From: Bacteroidota bacterium
GTDB lineage: Bacteria; Bacteroidota; Bacteroidia; Chitinophagales; Chitinophagaceae
Reading direction: 5' to 3'
Assembly: GCA_013289175.1 (NCBI GenBank)
Contig: JABDAN010000018.1
Span: forward strand, 1-43,404
Length of the DNA: 43,404 bases
Shown one piece after another: positions 17,644 through 24,022 of the stretch. Positions within the stretch are counted from its first letter, which is position 1, and every line of letters begins with the position of its first letter. The notes beneath the pieces are model-generated. The model searched no databases. It was not told the DNA's origin and saw only the letters and a list, made by a program, of their open reading frames with translations. A program made the position numbers and the translations under genes.

Positions 17644-18315
17644 TTAAGGTTGGGCGATGATACCATTTTTAACAGCATACATGACCAGGCCTGCCATCGA
17701 CTTGGCTCCGGTCTTGGTTTTGAGCTTATCGCGGATGGCTTCCACCGTACGAGGGCTGATATCCACCAGGTCTGCAATTTCCTTGGTCGTTTTCTCTTCG
17801 CACATCATTTTCAGGATGGTGGTCTCTTTTTCGGTCAGATTGGCCTCCTGGGGAATATTGGGTTCTATCCTTTTGGTACGAAGACCAGTTAAAAGTGCCT
17901 TGTTGGTGAGTTCATTAAAATAAAACTCCTGTTCGTAACAGGTTTTGATGGCATTATAGATGTTCTCAGAATCAGTGTTTTTAGTCAGGTAAGAGTTGGC
18001 CCCGATCTCCATCAGCTTGGAAATCATGGAATGATCGTTGTGCATGGAAAGGATGATCACTTTGACATGGGGATACATTTTGCGTATTTCCGGCAGGGTG
18101 GCGATCCCGTCCATAATGGGCATCTGGATATCCAGGAGAATTACGTCCGGTTCCATGTGTTTTAACAGGTTGAGCAGCTGCATGCCGTTGTCGGCTTCAG
18201 CGATGAGTTCAACATCCTTTTTAATGGAAAGTGCGGTTTTTACGCCGGCCCGGAACAGGGCGTGGTCGTCGGCGATGATCACTTTTATGGTTCCGTTCAG
18301 TTCTGGCTTTTTCAT
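17644..18315 (-). CDS. NarL/FixJ-family response regulator RR1 (orphan, divergent from the small RNA)
   Basis: 223 residues. The receiver domain (about 9-130) has acidic residues in IADDHALF, the phosphoacceptor Asp62 in LLDIQMPIMDG, and Lys in SYLTKNTD. A LuxR-type helix-turn-helix follows (about 155-220) with the recognition stretch SPRTVEAIRDKL. No kinase is on the same strand; the nearest, HK1, is about 1 kb away on the other strand, so RR1 is an orphan or shares HK1. It is clearly paralogous to RR2: both end in a GAK-(S/T)-(M/I)-AGL-(V/I)-MY pattern and share YLTK and EIxxAI segments. Both lie divergent from homologous small-RNA elements, so control of those RNAs is a reasonable inference. 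Confidence 0.93.
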   Translation of the reverse strand: MKKPELNGTIKVIIADDHALFRAGVKTALSIKKDVELIAEADNGMQLLNLLKHMEPDVILLDIQMPIMDGIATLPEIRKMYPHVKVIILSMHNDHSMISKLMEIGANSYLTKNTDSENIYNAIKTCYEQEFYFNELTNKALLTGLRTKRIEPNIPQEANLTEKETTILKMMCEEKTTKEIADLVDISPRTVEAIRDKLKTKTGAKSMAGLVMYAVKNGIIAQP

Positions 18316-18437: not shown

Positions 18438-18473
18438 CGTGGTTAAACTACGCCTTAGTGTAGGAGAACCACG
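18438..18473. repeat. Two-tier inverted repeat between RR1 and the small RNA
   Basis: The outer arms CGTGGTT (18438-18444) and AACCACG (18467-18473) enclose inner arms CTAC (18448-18451) and GTAG (18460-18463), making a nested dyad about 36 bases long. It has no U-tract on either side and could be an operator or a hairpin in an RR1 leader. Its counterpart is not seen next to RR2. Confidence 0.35.
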
Positions 18474-18519
18474 CGATACCGCTAGCAAAGCTACGAGGGT
18501 TGCCGTAAAAGCCGAACTG

Positions 18520-18542
18520 TTAAAAACGGGGAAACCTGCTCT
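18520..18542 (+). promoter_or_regulatory. Conserved box 1 upstream of small RNA A promoter
   Basis: The box starts TTAAAAACGGGG and ends TGCTCT. It lies directly upstream of the -33 region. Box 2 (23065-23087) sits at exactly the same distance from its promoter: the first base is 45 bases before the -7 box in both, with no gaps in between. An activator site for the adjacent NarL-type regulator is the natural reading. Confidence 0.55.
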
Positions 18543-18572
18543 TGAAGGGCTTCAGGGAAGATTATACATTTG
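18542..18572 (+). promoter_or_regulatory. Bacteroidota promoter of small RNA A
   Basis: TTG at 18542-18544, a spacer of exactly 20 bases, then TACATTTG at 18565-18572 match the Bacteroidota primary-sigma consensus TTG-N19-21-TAnnTTTG at every fixed position. The start of transcription is predicted at about 18577, the first base of the long closing stem of the RNA. Confidence 0.7.
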
Positions 18573-18576
18573 GTAT

Positions 18577-18703
18577 AAGTTGATTGACGGGAATAAGCAC
18601 CTTAGAAATCCAATATCCAGAGAATTACCGTCCATAAAGAGTTTCCAATATCCACCGAAAGCCACGCGAAGTCCAATGTCAATCAACTTATTTTTCTTTT
18701 TTT
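18577..18703 (+). ncRNA. Predicted small RNA A, paired ends with UCCA-rich interior
   Basis: The predicted RNA is about 127 nt. The 5' end (ATAAGTTGATTGAC, 18575-18588) is a perfect 14-bp inverted repeat with 18678-18691. U-rich tails follow at 18691-18695 and 18697-18703, as in an intrinsic terminator. The interior holds TCCAATATCCA twice, CGTCCA, and GTCCA near the 3' arm, mostly predicted unpaired. A homologous copy, RNA B, lies at 23124-23244. Between the copies the stem shows two compensatory pair changes (C-G to T-A, T-A to A-T) and one T-A to G-U change, which supports RNA pairing. There is no coding potential conserved between copies. It does not look like 6S RNA, tmRNA, RNase P or SRP RNA, and I do not recognise a named family. 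Confidence 0.65.
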
Positions 18704-18835
18704 CCAGACTGTCCGTTTTCCTCCATATACCTTGTTCCGCCAAGACCTGGTTTACAGAAAGAAAGACGGCCTATGAAAGACCATCCAACCTTATCCAATC
18801 CTTCTGAAGCCCATTGCTGGGTCATTATGTTACTG

Positions 18836-18881
18836 CCTGCTTTTTTGTAGATGCGAGTCTCCAGAAAAGCAGGTTTTTTTT
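18836..18881 (+). terminator. Strong rho-independent terminator downstream of small RNA A
   Basis: The arms 18836-18847 and 18862-18873 (core CCTGCTTTT / AAAAGCAGG, 12 pairs including one wobble) are followed by eight T at 18874-18881. It ends a rightward transcript although no rightward gene precedes it, so it terminates either read-through from small RNA A or a second RNA between 18704 and 18873. Confidence 0.75.
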
Positions 18882-18917
18882 GTGGGATAAAACCCACAGC
18901 TAACGCTCTTTGAAGAG
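18881..18917 (+). repeat. Two short hairpins directly after the terminator
   Basis: TGTGGG-ATAAAA-CCCACA (18881-18898) is a 6-bp perfect hairpin starting in the terminator's last T. CTCTT-TG-AAGAG (18906-18917) is a second one eight bases later. Neither has its own U-tract. Their role is unknown. Confidence 0.4.
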
Positions 18918-19301
18918 TATGGTCCGGTCCAACAGATAATAGATTTAGCAGCTGCAGTGGTTTCACTTTAACATTTATTTAAATTTTACCGCCTCTTCAC
19001 ACGCACTTCATACATTGACTGAGATTTAAATGCTTTTAATTTAAAATCCTTAATTTTTTGTTTGGGGGACTTTTCATTCCCAACATTGACCATCTTTGTT
19101 GTGCGAATATTTCCAGCGCATCGCAAAATATTAACCTAAACCACAAACCCATCATGTTACCGCTAAATTCTCCTCTTTTTACCTATTCTCTCTCCCCTAT
19201 CAGGTCAAGATCATAGTATAAATGATGTTTTTGAACCAACTCCGTTCTTTTGACCGATGATACGGGCCTATCCAACACCTCTAATATTTTAAACGTTCCA
19301 A
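18918..19301. other. Non-coding stretch before histidine kinase HK1
   Basis: This is about 380 AT-rich bases with no convincing gene on either strand. A CATCTTTG sequence near 19091-19098 is a partial match to the -7 promoter box and could drive HK1, but the -33 spacing is poor. Short open frames overlapping 18552-18966 on the minus strand lack family similarity and are not conserved in the homologous region near 23.2 kb. Confidence 0.4.
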
Positions 19302-20087
19302 ATGCAACATTCCGGTTACGCAATTTTGTTTTTAGTATTGATGTCCATTTTTGTGTTGACCATGGTGGGTTTTATCATTACCATCCTTTTTTTCGTTCAA
19401 AAAAAGCAAAAGGGATTTACCGACGACCTGATGACCATCAAGGCTAACTATGACAGGGAGTTATACAAGGCTCAATTAGAAATCCAGGAACAGACCTTCC
19501 AGGATATTGCCCGGGAAATTCACGACAATGTGGGGCAGGTCTTGTCCTTAGCCAAACTGGGCCTTAGTACCCTAGATCTGGATAGAAAAGATGATGCAAA
19601 GGAAAGTATCTCAGAAATCACCGATATCTTAGAAAAAGCCCTCGAAGACCTGAGACATATGTCCCGGTCACTGAATGCCGATATCATCCGGAAAGGTGGC
19701 CTTAAAAATTCAATAGACAAACAGGTGGGATTTTTACAAAGAGGTGGCAAGTTCAACATTCAATACCAGGTTACAGGAGAATCCATATTTCTTCATGAAA
19801 CCAAGGAAATCATCTTATTCAGGATCTTACAAGAAGCCGTCAACAATATTTTACGTCATTCCTCAGCCACCGAAATACTCATAAATCTTTCATACCAAAA
19901 AGACTTCCTAACCCTTCAAATCGAGGACAATGGAAAAGGATTTAGTATGGATGACCAAATCTTAAACACCGGACAAATCAACGGCATTTATAATATGCAA
20001 CACCGGGCCAAATTGATTAAAGCCGATTTAAAGATCGATAGTGAGGTCAGTAAAGGCACCAGAATTACCGTAAAGACTCCATATTAA
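19302..20087 (+). CDS. Histidine kinase HK1, NarX/DesK (HisKA_3) type
   Basis: 261 residues. One membrane segment (about 8-31) is followed by a coiled-coil linker rich in Lys/Glu (about 34-65). The dimerisation/phosphoacceptor domain carries His74 in AREIHDNVGQVL, and the ATPase domain (about 150-261) has the N box EAVNNILRHS, the G1 box EDNGKGF and KGTRITVKTPY at the end. There is no extracellular sensing domain, so the signal must come from the membrane, the cytoplasm or a partner protein; the multi-pass proteins encoded downstream are candidates. RR3 follows after 16 bases and is the likely cognate partner. Confidence 0.92.
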   Translation: MQHSGYAILFLVLMSIFVLTMVGFIITILFFVQKKQKGFTDDLMTIKANYDRELYKAQLEIQEQTFQDIAREIHDNVGQVLSLAKLGLSTLDLDRKDDAKESISEITDILEKALEDLRHMSRSLNADIIRKGGLKNSIDKQVGFLQRGGKFNIQYQVTGESIFLHETKEIILFRILQEAVNNILRHSSATEILINLSYQKDFLTLQIEDNGKGFSMDDQILNTGQINGIYNMQHRAKLIKADLKIDSEVSKGTRITVKTPY

Positions 20088-20103
20088 ATTCCGATCTTTA
20101 GAA

Positions 20104-20751
20104 ATGACTGATAGCCTGGTAAAAATTGGCTTGGTTGATGATCATATTCCATTCAGAAGCGCCTTGGCCAGCGCTATCCAGGCATTTGGAGGTTTTTCTA
20201 TTTCCCTGCAAGCCGCGAATGGAAGGGATTTTATTGAAAAGTTAGATGCCTTCAATAAGCCATCCATAATTATACTCGACCTGAGTATGCCGGAAATGGA
20301 CGGCCACGCAACCTTACGCTGGCTTAACAAAAATCATCCGGAGATAAGGATTCTCATCCTGACCATGCACGATGCTGAATCAATCCTTCCTTTCCCAAGT
20401 TCTGAAGTCAGCGGTTTCTTAAAAAAGGATATTTCTCCGTTTGATTTGAAACAAACATTGCAGAGACTGGTAATCAGCGGGTCTTCTCTCCCGGCATCCG
20501 ATACTGATCGCAAAAAGAAGACGAAACAAAATCCGGGTCCCGAAAAAATAATACTTAATGAAAATGAAATCTTGTTTTTGAAATGTGCGTCCACCGACAT
20601 GACTTTTGAGGAAATCGCCCAAAAAATGCAGAAAAGTGTCCATGTTGTCGATCAATACAAGAATTCGTTGTTCTTAAAGCTTCATGTGAAAAGTCGCGTA
20701 GGTTTGGCAAGGTATGCGATCAAAAATGGCATTGCCAGAATTGAACTTTGA
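20104..20751 (+). CDS. NarL/FixJ-family response regulator RR3, divergent output helix
   Basis: 215 residues. The receiver domain has VDDHIPF, phosphoacceptor Asp59 in IIILDLSMPEMDG, Thr in ILTMHD and Lys in GFLKKDIS. A basic linker (KKKTKQ, about 137-142) leads into a C-terminal LuxR-like HTH. In the recognition helix the usual SPRTVExIRxxL of its three relatives in this window is replaced by SVHVVDQYKNSLF, so its DNA target should differ. It follows HK1 in the same operon, and the 7TM-1 coding frame overlaps its end. Confidence 0.9.
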   Translation: MTDSLVKIGLVDDHIPFRSALASAIQAFGGFSISLQAANGRDFIEKLDAFNKPSIIILDLSMPEMDGHATLRWLNKNHPEIRILILTMHDAESILPFPSSEVSGFLKKDISPFDLKQTLQRLVISGSSLPASDTDRKKKTKQNPGPEKIILNENEILFLKCASTDMTFEEIAQKMQKSVHVVDQYKNSLFLKLHVKSRVGLARYAIKNGIARIEL

Positions 20752-21493
20752 TCATCATTTTATTATCAAACAACGTCTTAGAATTATCAAGTTGTTACTC
20801 ATTGAAATATCGGAATCTATTTCTGTTCTGTTTTTGGCTTTCACATTGATTATCGCCCTCAAGCATCGAGACAATAATCTAAAACTCATTACCATTTACA
20901 TCGTTGTCACAATTATTTATAGTCTTACAGATGTTTGGGCATGTATATTTACTCCCACCAATTATAAATTTTTATCGGTATTATATAATTCATATGACAT
21001 CTTAGAATTCACAATAATTAATTCCTTTATTTTTTCAAGATTGAGGTCTACCACCTTACGAATAGTATCTGTACTATGTTTTTTATTCTATTTTTTGATG
21101 TGTTACATTGATTTTTCACACTTTCATTTTTCAAATTTTACTCCGATCATGGCAGGAATTGGATATATATTTATTGCCATCCCCAGCTTGCTGCTTATAT
21201 TCGAGGTTTTGAAATCAGATCTAAAAACTGATTTACGCTCTAACCCTGATTTTCTGATTGGATCAGGGTGCCTTTTTTACTATAGCTTATGTATTCCAAT
21301 AAGCTTTTTTCTAGGAAATGCTTTTTTCGCCAACAACATATTGGATATAGCTCCATACTTGGTATGTTTAACTTACTTTTTTTACGCATTCCTGATTTAT
21401 ACATTCATTAGAGCTTATTTATCTCCTCCAGCTAAATATTCGCTTGAAATGTTATTTAAAACGGAACGATTTATTGTAAATAGTCTGAATTAA
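20726..21493 (+). CDS. Multi-pass membrane protein of unknown function, 7TM-1
   Basis: About 256 residues with some seven hydrophobic segments and short loops; no known domain recognised. Landmarks are KHRDNNLKLITIYIVV after TM1, LYNSYDILEFTIINSF near residue 95, and IAIPSLLLIFEVLKS followed by DLRSNP near 170. The next gene (7TM-2) shares all of these and is a clear paralogue. The ATG at 20726 overlaps RR3; a TTG at 20792, which aligns better with the start of 7TM-2, may be the real start. The gene is visibly more AT-rich than the housekeeping genes. Being in a kinase/regulator operon, it may be a membrane sensor for HK1, which is inference. Confidence 0.75.
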   Translation: MALPELNFDHHFIIKQRLRIIKLLLIEISESISVLFLAFTLIIALKHRDNNLKLITIYIVVTIIYSLTDVWACIFTPTNYKFLSVLYNSYDILEFTIINSFIFSRLRSTTLRIVSVLCFLFYFLMCYIDFSHFHFSNFTPIMAGIGYIFIAIPSLLLIFEVLKSDLKTDLRSNPDFLIGSGCLFYYSLCIPISFFLGNAFFANNILDIAPYLVCLTYFFYAFLIYTFIRAYLSPPAKYSLEMLFKTERFIVNSLN

Positions 21494-21521
21494 AATTGCG
21501 TTCGTCCTTGACTGGTTAAAA

Positions 21522-22193
21522 ATGCAGCGAATTATCACATACATAGCAGAAACATTCTTAGTTTCTATTCTTGTCTATGCATTGGTGGTTGCTTATAAAC
21601 ATCGTAAAAAAAATAGTTTAACTCTGATAACTATTTATATCATTGTCTCAATTATTTTTTATTCACTAGATATTTTGATTTCTATATTTGATTACGGTGC
21701 CGACGCTTTTTTTGCAGCTATGTACAATTCATATGGTTTATTCGAATTGTGTATAATTAATACTTTTCTCTTTCTAAAAATAAAATCTAAAAGTTTCCAA
21801 TTTGCAGTCATTTTAGGTAGCTGCATTTATTTTTCGATGTGCGCCATTGCATGGTTTATAAATTTTCATGCCTTTTTAAAGTTTACTCCATTCCTGCCGG
21901 GAATTGAATCTATTTTTATAGCCATTCCAAGCCTATTACTCATATTTGAAATCTTGAAATCGGGTTTAGCAGAAGATTTGCGTTCAAATCCAGTTTTTTT
22001 GATCTCTTCTGGATTGTTATTTTATCACAGCTTATGTGTCCCTATAATGTTTTTTCTTGGATATACACAATTGATCAATAAGATACCAGACTACTATCAG
22101 TATATGATAGATATCACGTTCATTTTTTACGCGGTTTTCATTTTTACTGTTGTGAAAGCTTATTTAGGGCAGTCTCTCCGAACAATGTATTGA
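21522..22193 (+). CDS. Multi-pass membrane protein of unknown function, 7TM-2
   Basis: 223 residues, about seven hydrophobic segments. It is a tandem paralogue of 7TM-1: KHRKKNSLTLITIYIIV, MYNSYGLFELCIINTF and IAIPSLLLIFEILKS with DLRSNP line up without gaps in the conserved parts, while the loops differ. It lies 28 bases after 7TM-1 and closes the HK1-RR3-7TM-1-7TM-2 operon. The charged DLRSNP loop and the Tyr/Phe-Glu motif are the most likely functional positions. No catalytic motif is visible. It is convergent with RR2. Confidence 0.75.
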   Translation: MQRIITYIAETFLVSILVYALVVAYKHRKKNSLTLITIYIIVSIIFYSLDILISIFDYGADAFFAAMYNSYGLFELCIINTFLFLKIKSKSFQFAVILGSCIYFSMCAIAWFINFHAFLKFTPFLPGIESIFIAIPSLLLIFEILKSGLAEDLRSNPVFLISSGLLFYHSLCVPIMFFLGYTQLINKIPDYYQYMIDITFIFYAVFIFTVVKAYLGQSLRTMY

Positions 22194-22280
22194 GTAAAGT
22201 TTATACCTGCGCAATTTATTTGCTGTCCATTTTTGGAAGGGAGTAATATCAAAACTCGGAAAACGAGAATCAAGCAGTTA

Positions 22281-22940
22281 TCAATCAATTAATTTATTGC
22301 GCATACCATACATGATCAAGCCTGCGATGGTTTTTGCACCCACTTTTGTTTTCATATTCTGGCGAATGGTTTCTATGGTGCGTGGGCTCAAAAAAACTTC
22401 CTTGGATATCTCTTCGGTGGTTTTATCCTGGGCCAATAATTTTAATATTTTCACTTCTTTCTCCGAAAATTTGATGGGGTCGGGATAAAACTGACGAACC
22501 TGGCGTTTGGTTTGGAGTTTAGAAAGTACTGCCTTGTTCACTAGGTCATTGAAATAAAAATCGTCATTCATACAGGCCAGAATGGCCTGATAGATTTCCT
22601 CCGGGTCTGTGGTTTTGGTAAGATAGGCGTTGGCACCCATTTCCATCATCTTGGAAATCATTTCCTGGTCATCATACATCGTTAGTACGATGATTTTTAC
22701 CTCTTCATATTCCTTCCTTAGAATTCCGATTGCATTGATGCCGTCTACTTCCGGCATCCGGATATCCATGAGCAGCACATCCGGTTTTTTTAATTGCATT
22801 TTATGCACCAGGTCTCTCCCATCTTCGGCTTCCCAGATGATTTTCAAATAATCCTTATCCTTCAATGCCATCTTAATTCCGTCCCTGAAAATTTTATGGT
22901 CGTCAGCTATTGCTACTTTAATTACTAATTCCAGGCTCAT
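22281..22940 (-). CDS. NarL/FixJ-family response regulator RR2 (orphan, divergent from the small RNA)
   Basis: 219 residues. The receiver domain shows IADDHKIF, phosphoacceptor Asp59 in LLMDIRMPEVDG, Thr in VLTMYDD and Lys in AYLTKTTD. The LuxR-type HTH includes SPRTIETIRQNM near residue 183. It is closest to RR1 among the regulators here. No kinase shares its strand; HK1 and HK2 are the nearest on either side. Its upstream region contains small RNA B, starting about 185 bases away on the other strand, matching the RR1-RNA A arrangement. Confidence 0.93.
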   Translation of the reverse strand: MSLELVIKVAIADDHKIFRDGIKMALKDKDYLKIIWEAEDGRDLVHKMQLKKPDVLLMDIRMPEVDGINAIGILRKEYEEVKIIVLTMYDDQEMISKMMEMGANAYLTKTTDPEEIYQAILACMNDDFYFNDLVNKAVLSKLQTKRQVRQFYPDPIKFSEKEVKILKLLAQDKTTEEISKEVFLSPRTIETIRQNMKTKVGAKTIAGLIMYGMRNKLID

Positions 22941-23064
22941 AAGGGATTGGTTGTAAAATTGTTACTATGCTTTATATTATTTGATTATGATGATTAATTG
23001 TAATATCTCTAAATGCATAGGAAAAGATAGAAATTATACGATGGATAAGGTAAATACTGAATAA

Positions 23065-23087
23065 TTAAAAACGAGAACTATTGCTCT
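23065..23087 (+). promoter_or_regulatory. Conserved box 2 upstream of small RNA B promoter
   Basis: The box starts TTAAAAACGAGAACTATTGC and matches box 3 (reverse strand, 23307-23329) at 17 of 20 positions, and box 1 closely. Its spacing to the -7 element equals that of box 1. Proposed regulator-binding site; inference from conservation. Confidence 0.55.
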
Positions 23088-23117
23088 GGTTTAAAGATTT
23101 TGTTAAACGTACATTCG
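23087..23117 (+). promoter_or_regulatory. Promoter of small RNA B
   Basis: TACATTCG at 23110-23117 is the -7 box (five of six fixed positions). The -33 position at the usual 20-base spacing reads TGG, so the -33 box is weak, consistent with dependence on an activator at box 2. Predicted start is about 23124. Confidence 0.5.
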
Positions 23118-23123
23118 AAATAG

Positions 23124-23244
23124 AAAGTTGATTGATAACGATTGCGTCAAACCATCCAATGTCCAAACTTACCGTCCAGTAAGACCTTCCAAATCCTTGA
23201 AAAACTATACAGTCCGGTATCAGTCAACTTTTTTCAAATTTTTT
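23124..23244 (+). ncRNA. Predicted small RNA B, paralogue of small RNA A
   Basis: The predicted RNA is about 121 nt. The arms 23124-23137 and 23218-23231 pair over 14 bp with one G-U. U-tracts follow at 23229-23234 and 23239-23244. Interior blocks shared with RNA A, in the same order, are ATCCAATGTCCA, TTACCGTCCA, TTCCAA and AGTCC. Here CTTAC-CGTCCA-GTAAG (23168-23183) makes a 5-bp hairpin presenting the conserved CGTCCA in its loop; in RNA A the same hairpin is reduced to TTA/TAA. Similarity continues about 60 bases upstream through the promoter and box, and past the U-tract to a shared CAGAC. Confidence 0.63.
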
Positions 23245-23475
23245 CTCAGACAAAACGCAGAAATACTTGATTAATTGCGGTTTCCGCAGTACCCTGTTAA
23301 TTAATTCACGCAAAAGTCCCCGTTTTTAAGATCCATCACTACCATCTAAGGGTTTCTACTTATCCACATACTACCTTCTAATTGGGGATAACCTTTTGAA
23401 ACTCACTCCATCTTCCTCATATATCTAAAAAACCGACCGTAAAAATACGATGCGGTTACCGGAACATTACGTTAC
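23245..23475. other. Non-coding stretch after small RNA B, with inverted box 3
   Basis: There is no convincing gene. It contains a short hairpin TGCGG-TTT-CCGCA near 23277-23290 and, at 23307-23329 on the reverse strand, a third copy of the TTAAAAACGGGG box. No promoter of the same type follows box 3 at the equivalent distance on that strand. Confidence 0.4.
23307..23329 (-). promoter_or_regulatory. Conserved box 3, inverted copy
   Basis: Read leftward from 23329, the sequence begins TTAAAAACGGGGACTTTTGC. The first 12 bases are identical to box 1, and 17 of 20 match box 2. It lies between small RNA B and the operon starting at 23636, so it may let the same regulator act on both. Confidence 0.5.
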
Positions 23476-23505: not shown

Positions 23506-23635
23506 CCAAAAGCCTCTACTGGTCTGAATCTCAAGCAATTTAAGGGTTTTTCATTGGGTTTCTAGGCGTTGTTGAATCTTTTTTTTAGGGCTTAATTACG
23601 TGCGAATAGAAGCAAAAAACATTAAAACTCTGATT

Positions 23636-24022
23636 ATGAACCAAGAACTAATTACGAAAGAACCGATGATATCCCAAGAAATCGGAGAAGAGATCTCTCT
23701 GGAACAAGCAGCCAAAATGGTTAAAAACCATCATGATAAGATGGGAGCTGAAGCGTCTCACGCTTTTTCAATTTCTAAAGAAGAGATTGCGATGATTTTA
23801 AACCAACCTGGTTGCGTGGGTATTACCTTCAAAGAAGCAATTAATGATGAAGGTGTCAAAACATTGGTTTATGGCGGTGTTGATTTTAAGGGAAATGGCA
23901 TCCTGGAAATAGTTACTGTAGATGAAATGGGCAAATTGGACTTTGAGCAAGGCAAAATAGGAATAATTAAAGCAACTGGAGGTTCCAATGTACTTCCTAC
24001 AAAATCCTGGTTTCAATTTTAA
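23636..24022 (+). CDS. Small protein of unknown function preceding a membrane sensor and kinase
   Basis: 128 residues from ATG 23636 (MNQELITKEP). An in-frame GTG at 23600 would add 12 residues but is less likely. It has no signal peptide or membrane segment. It has an acidic helical N-terminus (EEISLEQAAKMVKNHHDK), then ISKEEIAMILNQPGC and a mixed alpha/beta end with GGVDFKGNGILEI. No known domain is recognised. The gene opens the operon containing 7TM-3, HK2 and RR4. A cytoplasmic regulator or small ligand-binding protein is possible but unsupported by any motif. Confidence 0.7.
   Translation: MNQELITKEPMISQEIGEEISLEQAAKMVKNHHDKMGAEASHAFSISKEEIAMILNQPGCVGITFKEAINDEGVKTLVYGGVDFKGNGILEIVTVDEMGKLDFEQGKIGIIKATGGSNVLPTKSWFQF

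Follow-up and report, generated by a model that had tools for sequence, protein, structure and literature searches.

The DNA analysed here is a stretch of 43,404 nucleotides (the window; contig JABDAN010000018.1) from a genome of the family Chitinophagaceae, phylum Bacteroidota, in which two intergenic elements, A and B, each lie divergent from a gene for a NarL-type response regulator, regulators A and B (Table 1). Two HisKA_3 kinases and two additional regulators share a gene cluster with them. Both elements read on the forward strand, and an alignment places their interior blocks in the same order, with a stem at either end, which bears out an original prediction of two look-alike intergenic elements at this place. 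That prediction took them for an unnamed small RNA acting as a sponge for a protein or mRNA. A sponge fits our results, but the best-supported partner is a second small RNA, which we call sX, not a protein or first of all an mRNA. We consider it probable, from sequence comparison, that A and B specify a multi-site decoy (sponge) RNA for sX that is linked to a NarL-type regulator.

Elements A and B and the large-RNA family

A covariance model built from A and B, the check first proposed for the element, picks up 56 of 148 genomes at E≤1, one of them the genome of the window. That genome holds a third copy (G000:C42:12557-12678, E 1.2e-6), so that the element described as duplicated is indeed repeated but not confined to two copies. 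A 60-member model at E≤0.01 extends the distribution to 146 of 394 genomes of the window's family and 39 of 101 genera, with up to nine copies per genome, and in a class-wide draw it matches 4 of 395 genomes, all within the same family. In a scan of named records (at least 120 stretches), most titles naming a family or genus are, among the matches listed, Chitinophagaceae; genera among those matches include Ferruginibacter, Flavisolibacter, Cnuella and Ginsengibacter, whose lineage was checked, and Flavitalea, Terrimonas, Paraflavitalea and Pinibacter, which we take to belong to Chitinophagaceae. Flavisolibacter ginsengisoli and Cnuella takakiae are among the species matched by the decoy pattern. 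A few listed named matches fall outside the family (L138, L177 and L208), of which the first two failed a motif test and the third is absent from the set that keeps matches with a T-rich tail. We conclude that A and B are members of a genuine RNA family. In agreement with the original view, which recognised no 6S RNA, tmRNA, RNase P, SRP or riboswitch here, Rfam gave no match to the large RNA in the window at gathering score, and at E≤1 six decoy loci gave just two unrelated sub-threshold matches, both outside the decoys. The passages and listings returned by literature searches contain no earlier name for either RNA, which is not proof of absence.

For the structural comparisons, 226 unique sequences were reduced by six that failed the -7 or two-TCC test, and B of the window was restored by hand, giving 221; left out are the antisense of B, L138, L141 and L177 (non-members) and L254 (probably a member). 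Removal of similar sequences left 189. The outer stem of A and B counts 13 pairs rather than the 14 first reported. Between A and B both sides change at pair 12 (C-G to U-A), the sole compensatory change where two had been announced; the G-U is found at pair 8 (A-U against G-U), and pair 13 has a one-sided change (G-U to A-U). With one double change, one one-sided change and one G-U, A and B by themselves support the stem more thinly than was originally stated, and folding against shuffled sequences was barely better for A (z -1.15) and better for B (z -3.09). The wider family strengthens the case: pair 12 covaries (147 UA and 22 CG among the 189 non-redundant members, reached by 0 of 500 shuffles), while 7 of the 13 pairs are invariant across 60 sequences. 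In one genome, G155, the stem at the same place has a different sequence, the first 13 nt pairing best near +143 at -10.6 kcal/mol (0 of 50 shuffled arms). Such replacement by another sequence speaks for the stem itself; a reading by eye that G155 had lost its stem was rejected on this pairing test.

The same 5' arm can also be used by a local 5' hairpin of at least 8 bp, present in 114 of 221 members and in 6 of 221 shuffled controls, whose pair 13 covaries (0 of 500 shuffles). We used contiguous stems with a shuffled control here because calling the hairpin by the minimum free energy of the first 50 nt was too permissive (185 of 221). The G-U at pair 8 of the long stem occurs in 86 of 97 members with the local hairpin, against 30 of 76 without it, and its retention in hairpin-bearing decoys suggests a two-state RNA. 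Because the sequences are related and share history, the pattern hints at two alternative folds without proving them. The loops are poor in G (11% G, 207 loops) and carry a mean of 5 UCC each, with a spacing peak at 7.

An antisense reading of the elements was ruled out, the promoter boxes and U-tract lying on the forward strand and sX sites being rare on the other. An open reading frame (ORF) of 122 amino acids starting with GTG (18439-18807, forward strand) runs across A; in the ORF list, no ORF of at least 80 amino acids spans B.

The claim of a shared promoter was confirmed, as -7 boxes, dyads and an upstream box (beginning at 18520 and 23065) precede both A and B in an arrangement of the Bacteroidota type. 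In 217 of 220 family members the stem is preceded at 49-52 nt by the start of the best match to GRGCA-N4-TGCTC plus TTG, after which comes TAnnTTTG; by a loose test, 224 of the 226 unique sequences have TTTG or TTTA no more than 16 nt upstream. The full promoter pattern, searched exactly, gave 18 matches in 78 genomes and none with the reversed control; 16 of the 18 precede, by eye, a family-like RNA, including three divergent ones (L274, L275 and L279) that the first model had missed. The remaining loci are L266, where the promoter is followed by a deletion remnant of the RNA, and L269, where nothing recognisable follows. L275 and L279 represent a divergent subtype in which the promoter and UCC/GAAA units are kept and the stem is changed. 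The dyad as the mark of a wide regulon was tried and discarded, as the window's genome holds six matches with at most 1 mismatch and seven for the reversed pattern; the dyad alone is unspecific there, and only the full promoter in relatives is specific.

Neighbourhoods recur as well. Among 124 model hits (two of them doubtful, L130 and L133), a response regulator of cluster c1 lies divergently beside 69, and another 27 lie on the same strand downstream of a cystathionine beta-synthase-like gene. Tandem decoys were seen at L074 (three, about 0.9-1.1 kb apart) and at L173 and L234 (three each, about 410-450 nt apart). Downstream of B-type RNAs a small protein of about 120-150 amino acids (cluster c6) recurs, in the window at 23600-24022 on the forward strand, where Pfam gave no match at E≤0.001.

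A second putative small RNA, sX, and its complementarity to the large RNA

A search of the window's own genome for the complement of the decoy motif, GGAYATTGGA, returned 25 matches against 11 for the control. Four of the 25 are decoys, and three are copies of one intergenic element, sX (locus ids L301, L314 and L315). At about 60 nt, sX consists of the seed GGUUUUUCAUAGGAUAUUGGAUUU, a short linker rich in A, a GC-rich hairpin and a U-tract. It is built like a small RNA gene and makes up an RNA family of its own, the second one here that is unannotated. Allowing up to 3 mismatches, the 24-nt seed is present in 74 of the 117 family genomes searched, against 0 for the control, and is exact in all but 26 among the matches listed. 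For alignment we selected 40 sX copies with exact seeds. Covariation is seen in the hairpin, where 98.3% of cells are paired and 15 are double-change cells (0 of 500 shuffles), and a -7-like box lies within 18 nt upstream in 30 of the 40, 24 of which also have TTG at -33. Class-wide, an sX model matches 13 of 395 genomes, eight in the family and five others weakly (E 1.5e-4 to 9.2e-4). Six sX loci compared with Rfam at E≤5 gave eight sub-threshold matches only (E 0.69-3.2), and viral contigs hold no exact match to sX. Neither RNA rises above the Rfam threshold, and genome annotation based on Rfam would therefore miss both.

Two side observations concern sX. Five of the 40 promoters contain another dyad, ATACC-N6-9-GGTAT (by eye, those of L334, L335, L342, L346 and L357), which suggests separate control of some sX copies. 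In the window, 23545-23587 on the forward strand, upstream of the ORF at 23600, is a weak match to the sX model (16 bits, E 0.75) that has the first ten seed bases in common with sX and a T-tract; it is perhaps a relic.

The loops of the large RNA are complementary to the sX seed beyond chance. The strongest duplex between seed and loop has a mean of -21.9 kcal/mol over 189 loops; shuffled loops give -13.1 and shuffled seeds -12.1, and in 186 of the loops the real duplex beats its own shuffle. The 5' part of the seed, unused in finding sX, beats the shuffle mean in 177 of 189 loops, and the short 3' part does so in 115 of 189. The general form of the sites, UCCAAUAUCC-N(1-3)-GAAAAACC, is the complement of the seed at the 5' end of sX. 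[AG]UCC is followed by GAAA at 1, 2 and 3 nt in 52, 36 and 52 cases, compared with 5 to 6 in shuffles. The sites are also specific in strand and position, with means over 119 RNAs of 4.71 strong sites in +0..+450, 0.37 in -450..0 and 0.19 antisense, and between 1 and 12 per decoy. They extend along the sense strand from the RNA start to about +300 where the neighbour is a regulator and to about +400 where it is the synthase gene. The profile stays at background upstream and on the opposite strand, apart from a bump on the latter at the starts of regulator A genes. In B of the window the two best loop sites reach -20.6 and -18.0 kcal/mol.

The region after the U-tract, which likewise played no part in finding sX, pairs with the seed at -19.6 kcal/mol against -14.1 for shuffles and is better in 101 of 122 cases. 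The U-tract named as the 3' end is present, but the RNA need not stop there, and with sites continuing past it the transcript probably often passes this first U-tract. The possible true 3' end of A listed in Table 1 was absent from our terminator list, which admitted loops of 3-8 only.

We hypothesize that the decoy transcript binds several sX molecules through single-stranded sites and keeps sX from other targets. Transcription, duplex formation in the cell and titration of sX are inferred here from the sequence comparisons. By pairing the 5' end with the stretch that precedes the first U-tract, the stem would probably keep the loop open, shield the 5' end or serve as a leaky first terminator, and the sX sites would extend beyond it to about +300 to +400. 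The NarL-type regulator next to B may act on the decoy promoter through the dyad.

Table 1. Coordinates of the putative decoy RNAs, their predicted promoters and sX sites, the adjacent regulators and the sX copies. Positions are those of the window unless a genome and contig are given (G000, the window's genome).
Feature	Position	Strand	Remarks
Putative decoy RNA A, conserved part	18577..18705	+	Stem arms 18577-18589 / 18677-18689, then U-tract
Putative decoy RNA B, conserved part	23125..23246	+	Stem arms 23125-23137 / 23218-23230
Promoter dyad of A	18528..18544	+	GGGGAAACCTGCTCTTG; GRGCA-N4-TGCTC abutting -33 TTG
-7 box of A	18565..18572	+	TACATTTG; read from sequence
Promoter dyad of B, degenerate	23073..23089	+	GAGAACTATTGCTCTGG; by eye
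-7 box of B	23110..23117	+	TACATTCG; read from sequence
Site 1 of A against sX seed	18604..18630	+	-26.2 kcal/mol
Site 2 of A against sX seed	18643..18664	+	-21.9 kcal/mol
Weaker site of A, overlapping 3' stem arm	18667..18681	+	-16.4 kcal/mol
Further sX-complementary sites past U-tract of A	18760..18819	+	-22.0 and -16.4 kcal/mol, two 40-nt windows
Stem resembling a terminator, followed by T8; possibly the true 3' end of A (about 305 nt)	18835..18881	+	Fold; inverted repeat
Site of B against sX seed	23151..23165	+	-16.6 to -18.3 kcal/mol
Main site of B against sX seed	23186..23207	+	-20.6 kcal/mol
Downstream site of B, also pairing with sX linker	23318..23344	+	-18.9 to -22.1 kcal/mol
NarL-type response regulator A, divergent from A	17644..18315	-	Pfam Response_reg and GerE
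NarL-type response regulator B, divergent from B; candidate activator	22281..22940	-	Pfam Response_reg and GerE; co-occurrence
sX copy 1	G000:C11:60061-60127	+	Outside window
sX copy 2	G000:C62:2573-2637	-	Outside window
sX copy 3	G000:C69:12577-12642	+	Outside window

Co-occurrence with a regulator and candidate targets of sX

The two RNAs and regulator B occur together. Every one of the 42 genomes (of 117) matched by the decoy model has the partner sX gene, compared with 32 of the 75 others (Fisher 1e-11), and sX averages 4.0 copies in decoy genomes and 1.6 in the rest. A regulator B orthologue is present in 40 of the 42 decoy genomes against 4 of the 75 without a decoy (Fisher 3e-24), and all 44 genomes with this orthologue have sX. 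We counted as orthologues the matches at E≤1e-78, which come from 44 genomes (in one, a fragment), the cut having been set afterwards at a gap in the list. Those ranking next (1.9e-70 to 5.2e-61, about 50% identity) we regarded as regulator A-like, and the two remaining decoy genomes, G069 and G185, hold only such a match. In one of the four exceptions, G155, a diverged decoy (E 0.008) lies next to regulator B; it has the dyad and the -7 box, its sites range from -16 to -23 kcal/mol, and a hairpin precedes its T run at +286. G148, which has sX and no decoy-model match at E≤0.01, yet carries a compact element with sites of -22 to -24 kcal/mol that precedes a terminator-like hairpin. Given these decoy-like elements, 42 is a lower bound. 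The dyad, at an estimated position of about -42, would most likely be bound by the NarL-type regulator encoded next to B.

The complement of the sX seed, UUUUAAAAUCCAAUAUCCUAUGAAAAACC, resembles the start of a reading frame. We compared the seed with start regions in the window and in 60 stretches of 20 kb from the same genome, and found 7 of 963 start regions at ≤-20 kcal/mol, against 2 positions inside the same ORFs and a mean of 0.55 (at most 2) for 20 shuffled seeds. Several of the best start-region matches belong to predicted exported proteins or lipoproteins, their N-termini read by eye. Regulator A genes are the better fit: with the AUG held in register, their 37 starts have a mean score of 23.6, against 11.7 for 19 regulator B starts, 10.5 for 179 own-genome AUGAAA starts and 6.1 for all 967 starts; the window's own regulator A start forms a weak duplex with the sX seed (-15.1 kcal/mol). 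Start-codon blocking by sX, of regulator A genes among others, is likely but not established, and mRNAs as targets of sX are weakly supported. In G188, the leader of a frame beginning MKVLAIASAGGHWIQL (L324, near 2844) holds a long match to the sX complement (-23.0 kcal/mol) and is a candidate target.

Taken together, these elements could form a two-RNA circuit in which the NarL-type regulator switches on the multi-site decoy, the decoy absorbs several copies of an sX that blocks start codons, and envelope mRNAs are released. The mRNA of regulator A nearby would be set free as well, which would complete a feedback loop. We offer this fuller circuit tentatively, as rather doubtful in its entirety.

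Several observations weigh against the decoy reading or its extensions. Because sX was found through the complement of a 10-nt motif, its pairing with the loops is partly by construction, the unused 5' seed part serving as the control, and an ACCGUCC motif of the A/B class is left unexplained by sX. There are 32 genomes with sX and no decoy-model match; sX can exist without a decoy, or the model misses diverged copies. Beside regulator B in G158, G188 and G200 there is no clear decoy, with two sites of about -16.5 kcal/mol in the first of these and none in the other two. The genomes are related, and the Fisher values accordingly overstate independence. The case for control by the regulator draws on co-occurrence, neighbourhood and a dyad geometry comparable to that of NarL/LuxR sites, and the dyads of the window's genome are degenerate. 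As to targets, the excess of start regions over ORF interiors shrinks to almost nothing at weaker cut-offs (15 versus 13 at -18 and 28 versus 23 at -17), and the AUG-in-register test exceeds its control only at the top cut-off (8 versus 2.9, 4 of 200 shuffles), with 121 versus 118 at cut-off 15.

Alternative readings and known systems

Complementarity is symmetric, and the roles could be the reverse of those proposed: sX would serve as an anti-RNA inactivating the large RNA, which would itself be the effector, for example by mRNA pairing or protein binding. The unexplained ACCGUCC motif and the highly conserved stem sequence favour this reading. We nevertheless regard this arrangement as unlikely, as sX occurs in 74 of 117 genomes and the large RNA in 42, each of them with sX, and as the large RNA varies and repeats a short unit while the sX seed is near-constant, the pattern of a constrained regulator and its binding sites. 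A protein sponge of the CsrB/RsmZ type, whose UCC repeats would titrate an RNA-binding protein under a NarL-type regulator, could account for the regulators beside the A/B class and for a motif repeated a mean of 5 times per loop; it is less probable again, since GGA is scarce (0.6 per loop against 5.1 UCC, 221 loops) and the sX seed already accounts for the repeat. We give very little credence to a divergent 6S RNA, which would share the closing stem and the large open internal bubble: Rfam 15, which presumably holds 6S models, gave no match in the window (gathering score) or at six decoy loci (E≤1), the genome not having been searched for a separate 6S RNA, and the large RNA has several copies per genome. 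In PMC2864571, 6S-flavo is RF01685. A mobile repeat, akin to a miniature inverted-repeat transposable element, would explain inverted ends, multiple copies in many genomes and tandem copies, and is just as hard to credit given that the copies are diverged yet keep promoter and order, that neighbourhoods recur (69/124 and 27/124) and that the stem pattern has no exact match in viral contigs.

If the decoy reading is right, A and B would exemplify a multi-site RNA sponge in bacteria encoded by a free-standing gene that has several copies and a regulator of its own, and the partner of this sponge would be a small RNA with 24 nt near-unchanged across a bacterial family. To our knowledge, little is known about RNA regulation in Bacteroidota outside gut genera.

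Within the phylum, a close description is that of the FopS/GibS small RNA family of Bacteroides thetaiotaomicron, which is multi-copy and acts on the translation of target mRNA, with GibS binding translation-initiation regions and the protein RbpB antagonising FopS (PMC11697453). The antagonist of FopS is thus a protein, and the passages of that paper seen name no decoy RNA. By description only, sX is alike in being from the same phylum, multi-copy and, as we propose, acting on translation.

Bacterial sponges and decoys of small RNAs include chbBC against ChiX and SroC against GcvB; these examples carry a single site or a small number of them and originate from mRNAs, tRNA spacers or prophages. 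As in those systems, the sites in A and B resemble the mRNA target of a regulatory small RNA and would titrate it; the decoy described here differs in having a dedicated gene in several copies, between 1 and 12 strong sites (mean 4.7), a conserved promoter dyad and a regulator partner. The CsrB/RsmXYZ sponges stand under GacA and repeat the motif GGA, and the large RNA resembles them in having a repeated motif and a NarL-type regulator nearby, but its motif is UCC and an RNA is proposed as its partner. Plant target mimics and microRNA sponges present an array of imperfect target sites with a mismatched middle. The large RNA would share this design, in a form that is bacterial, natural and furnished with up to a dozen sites.

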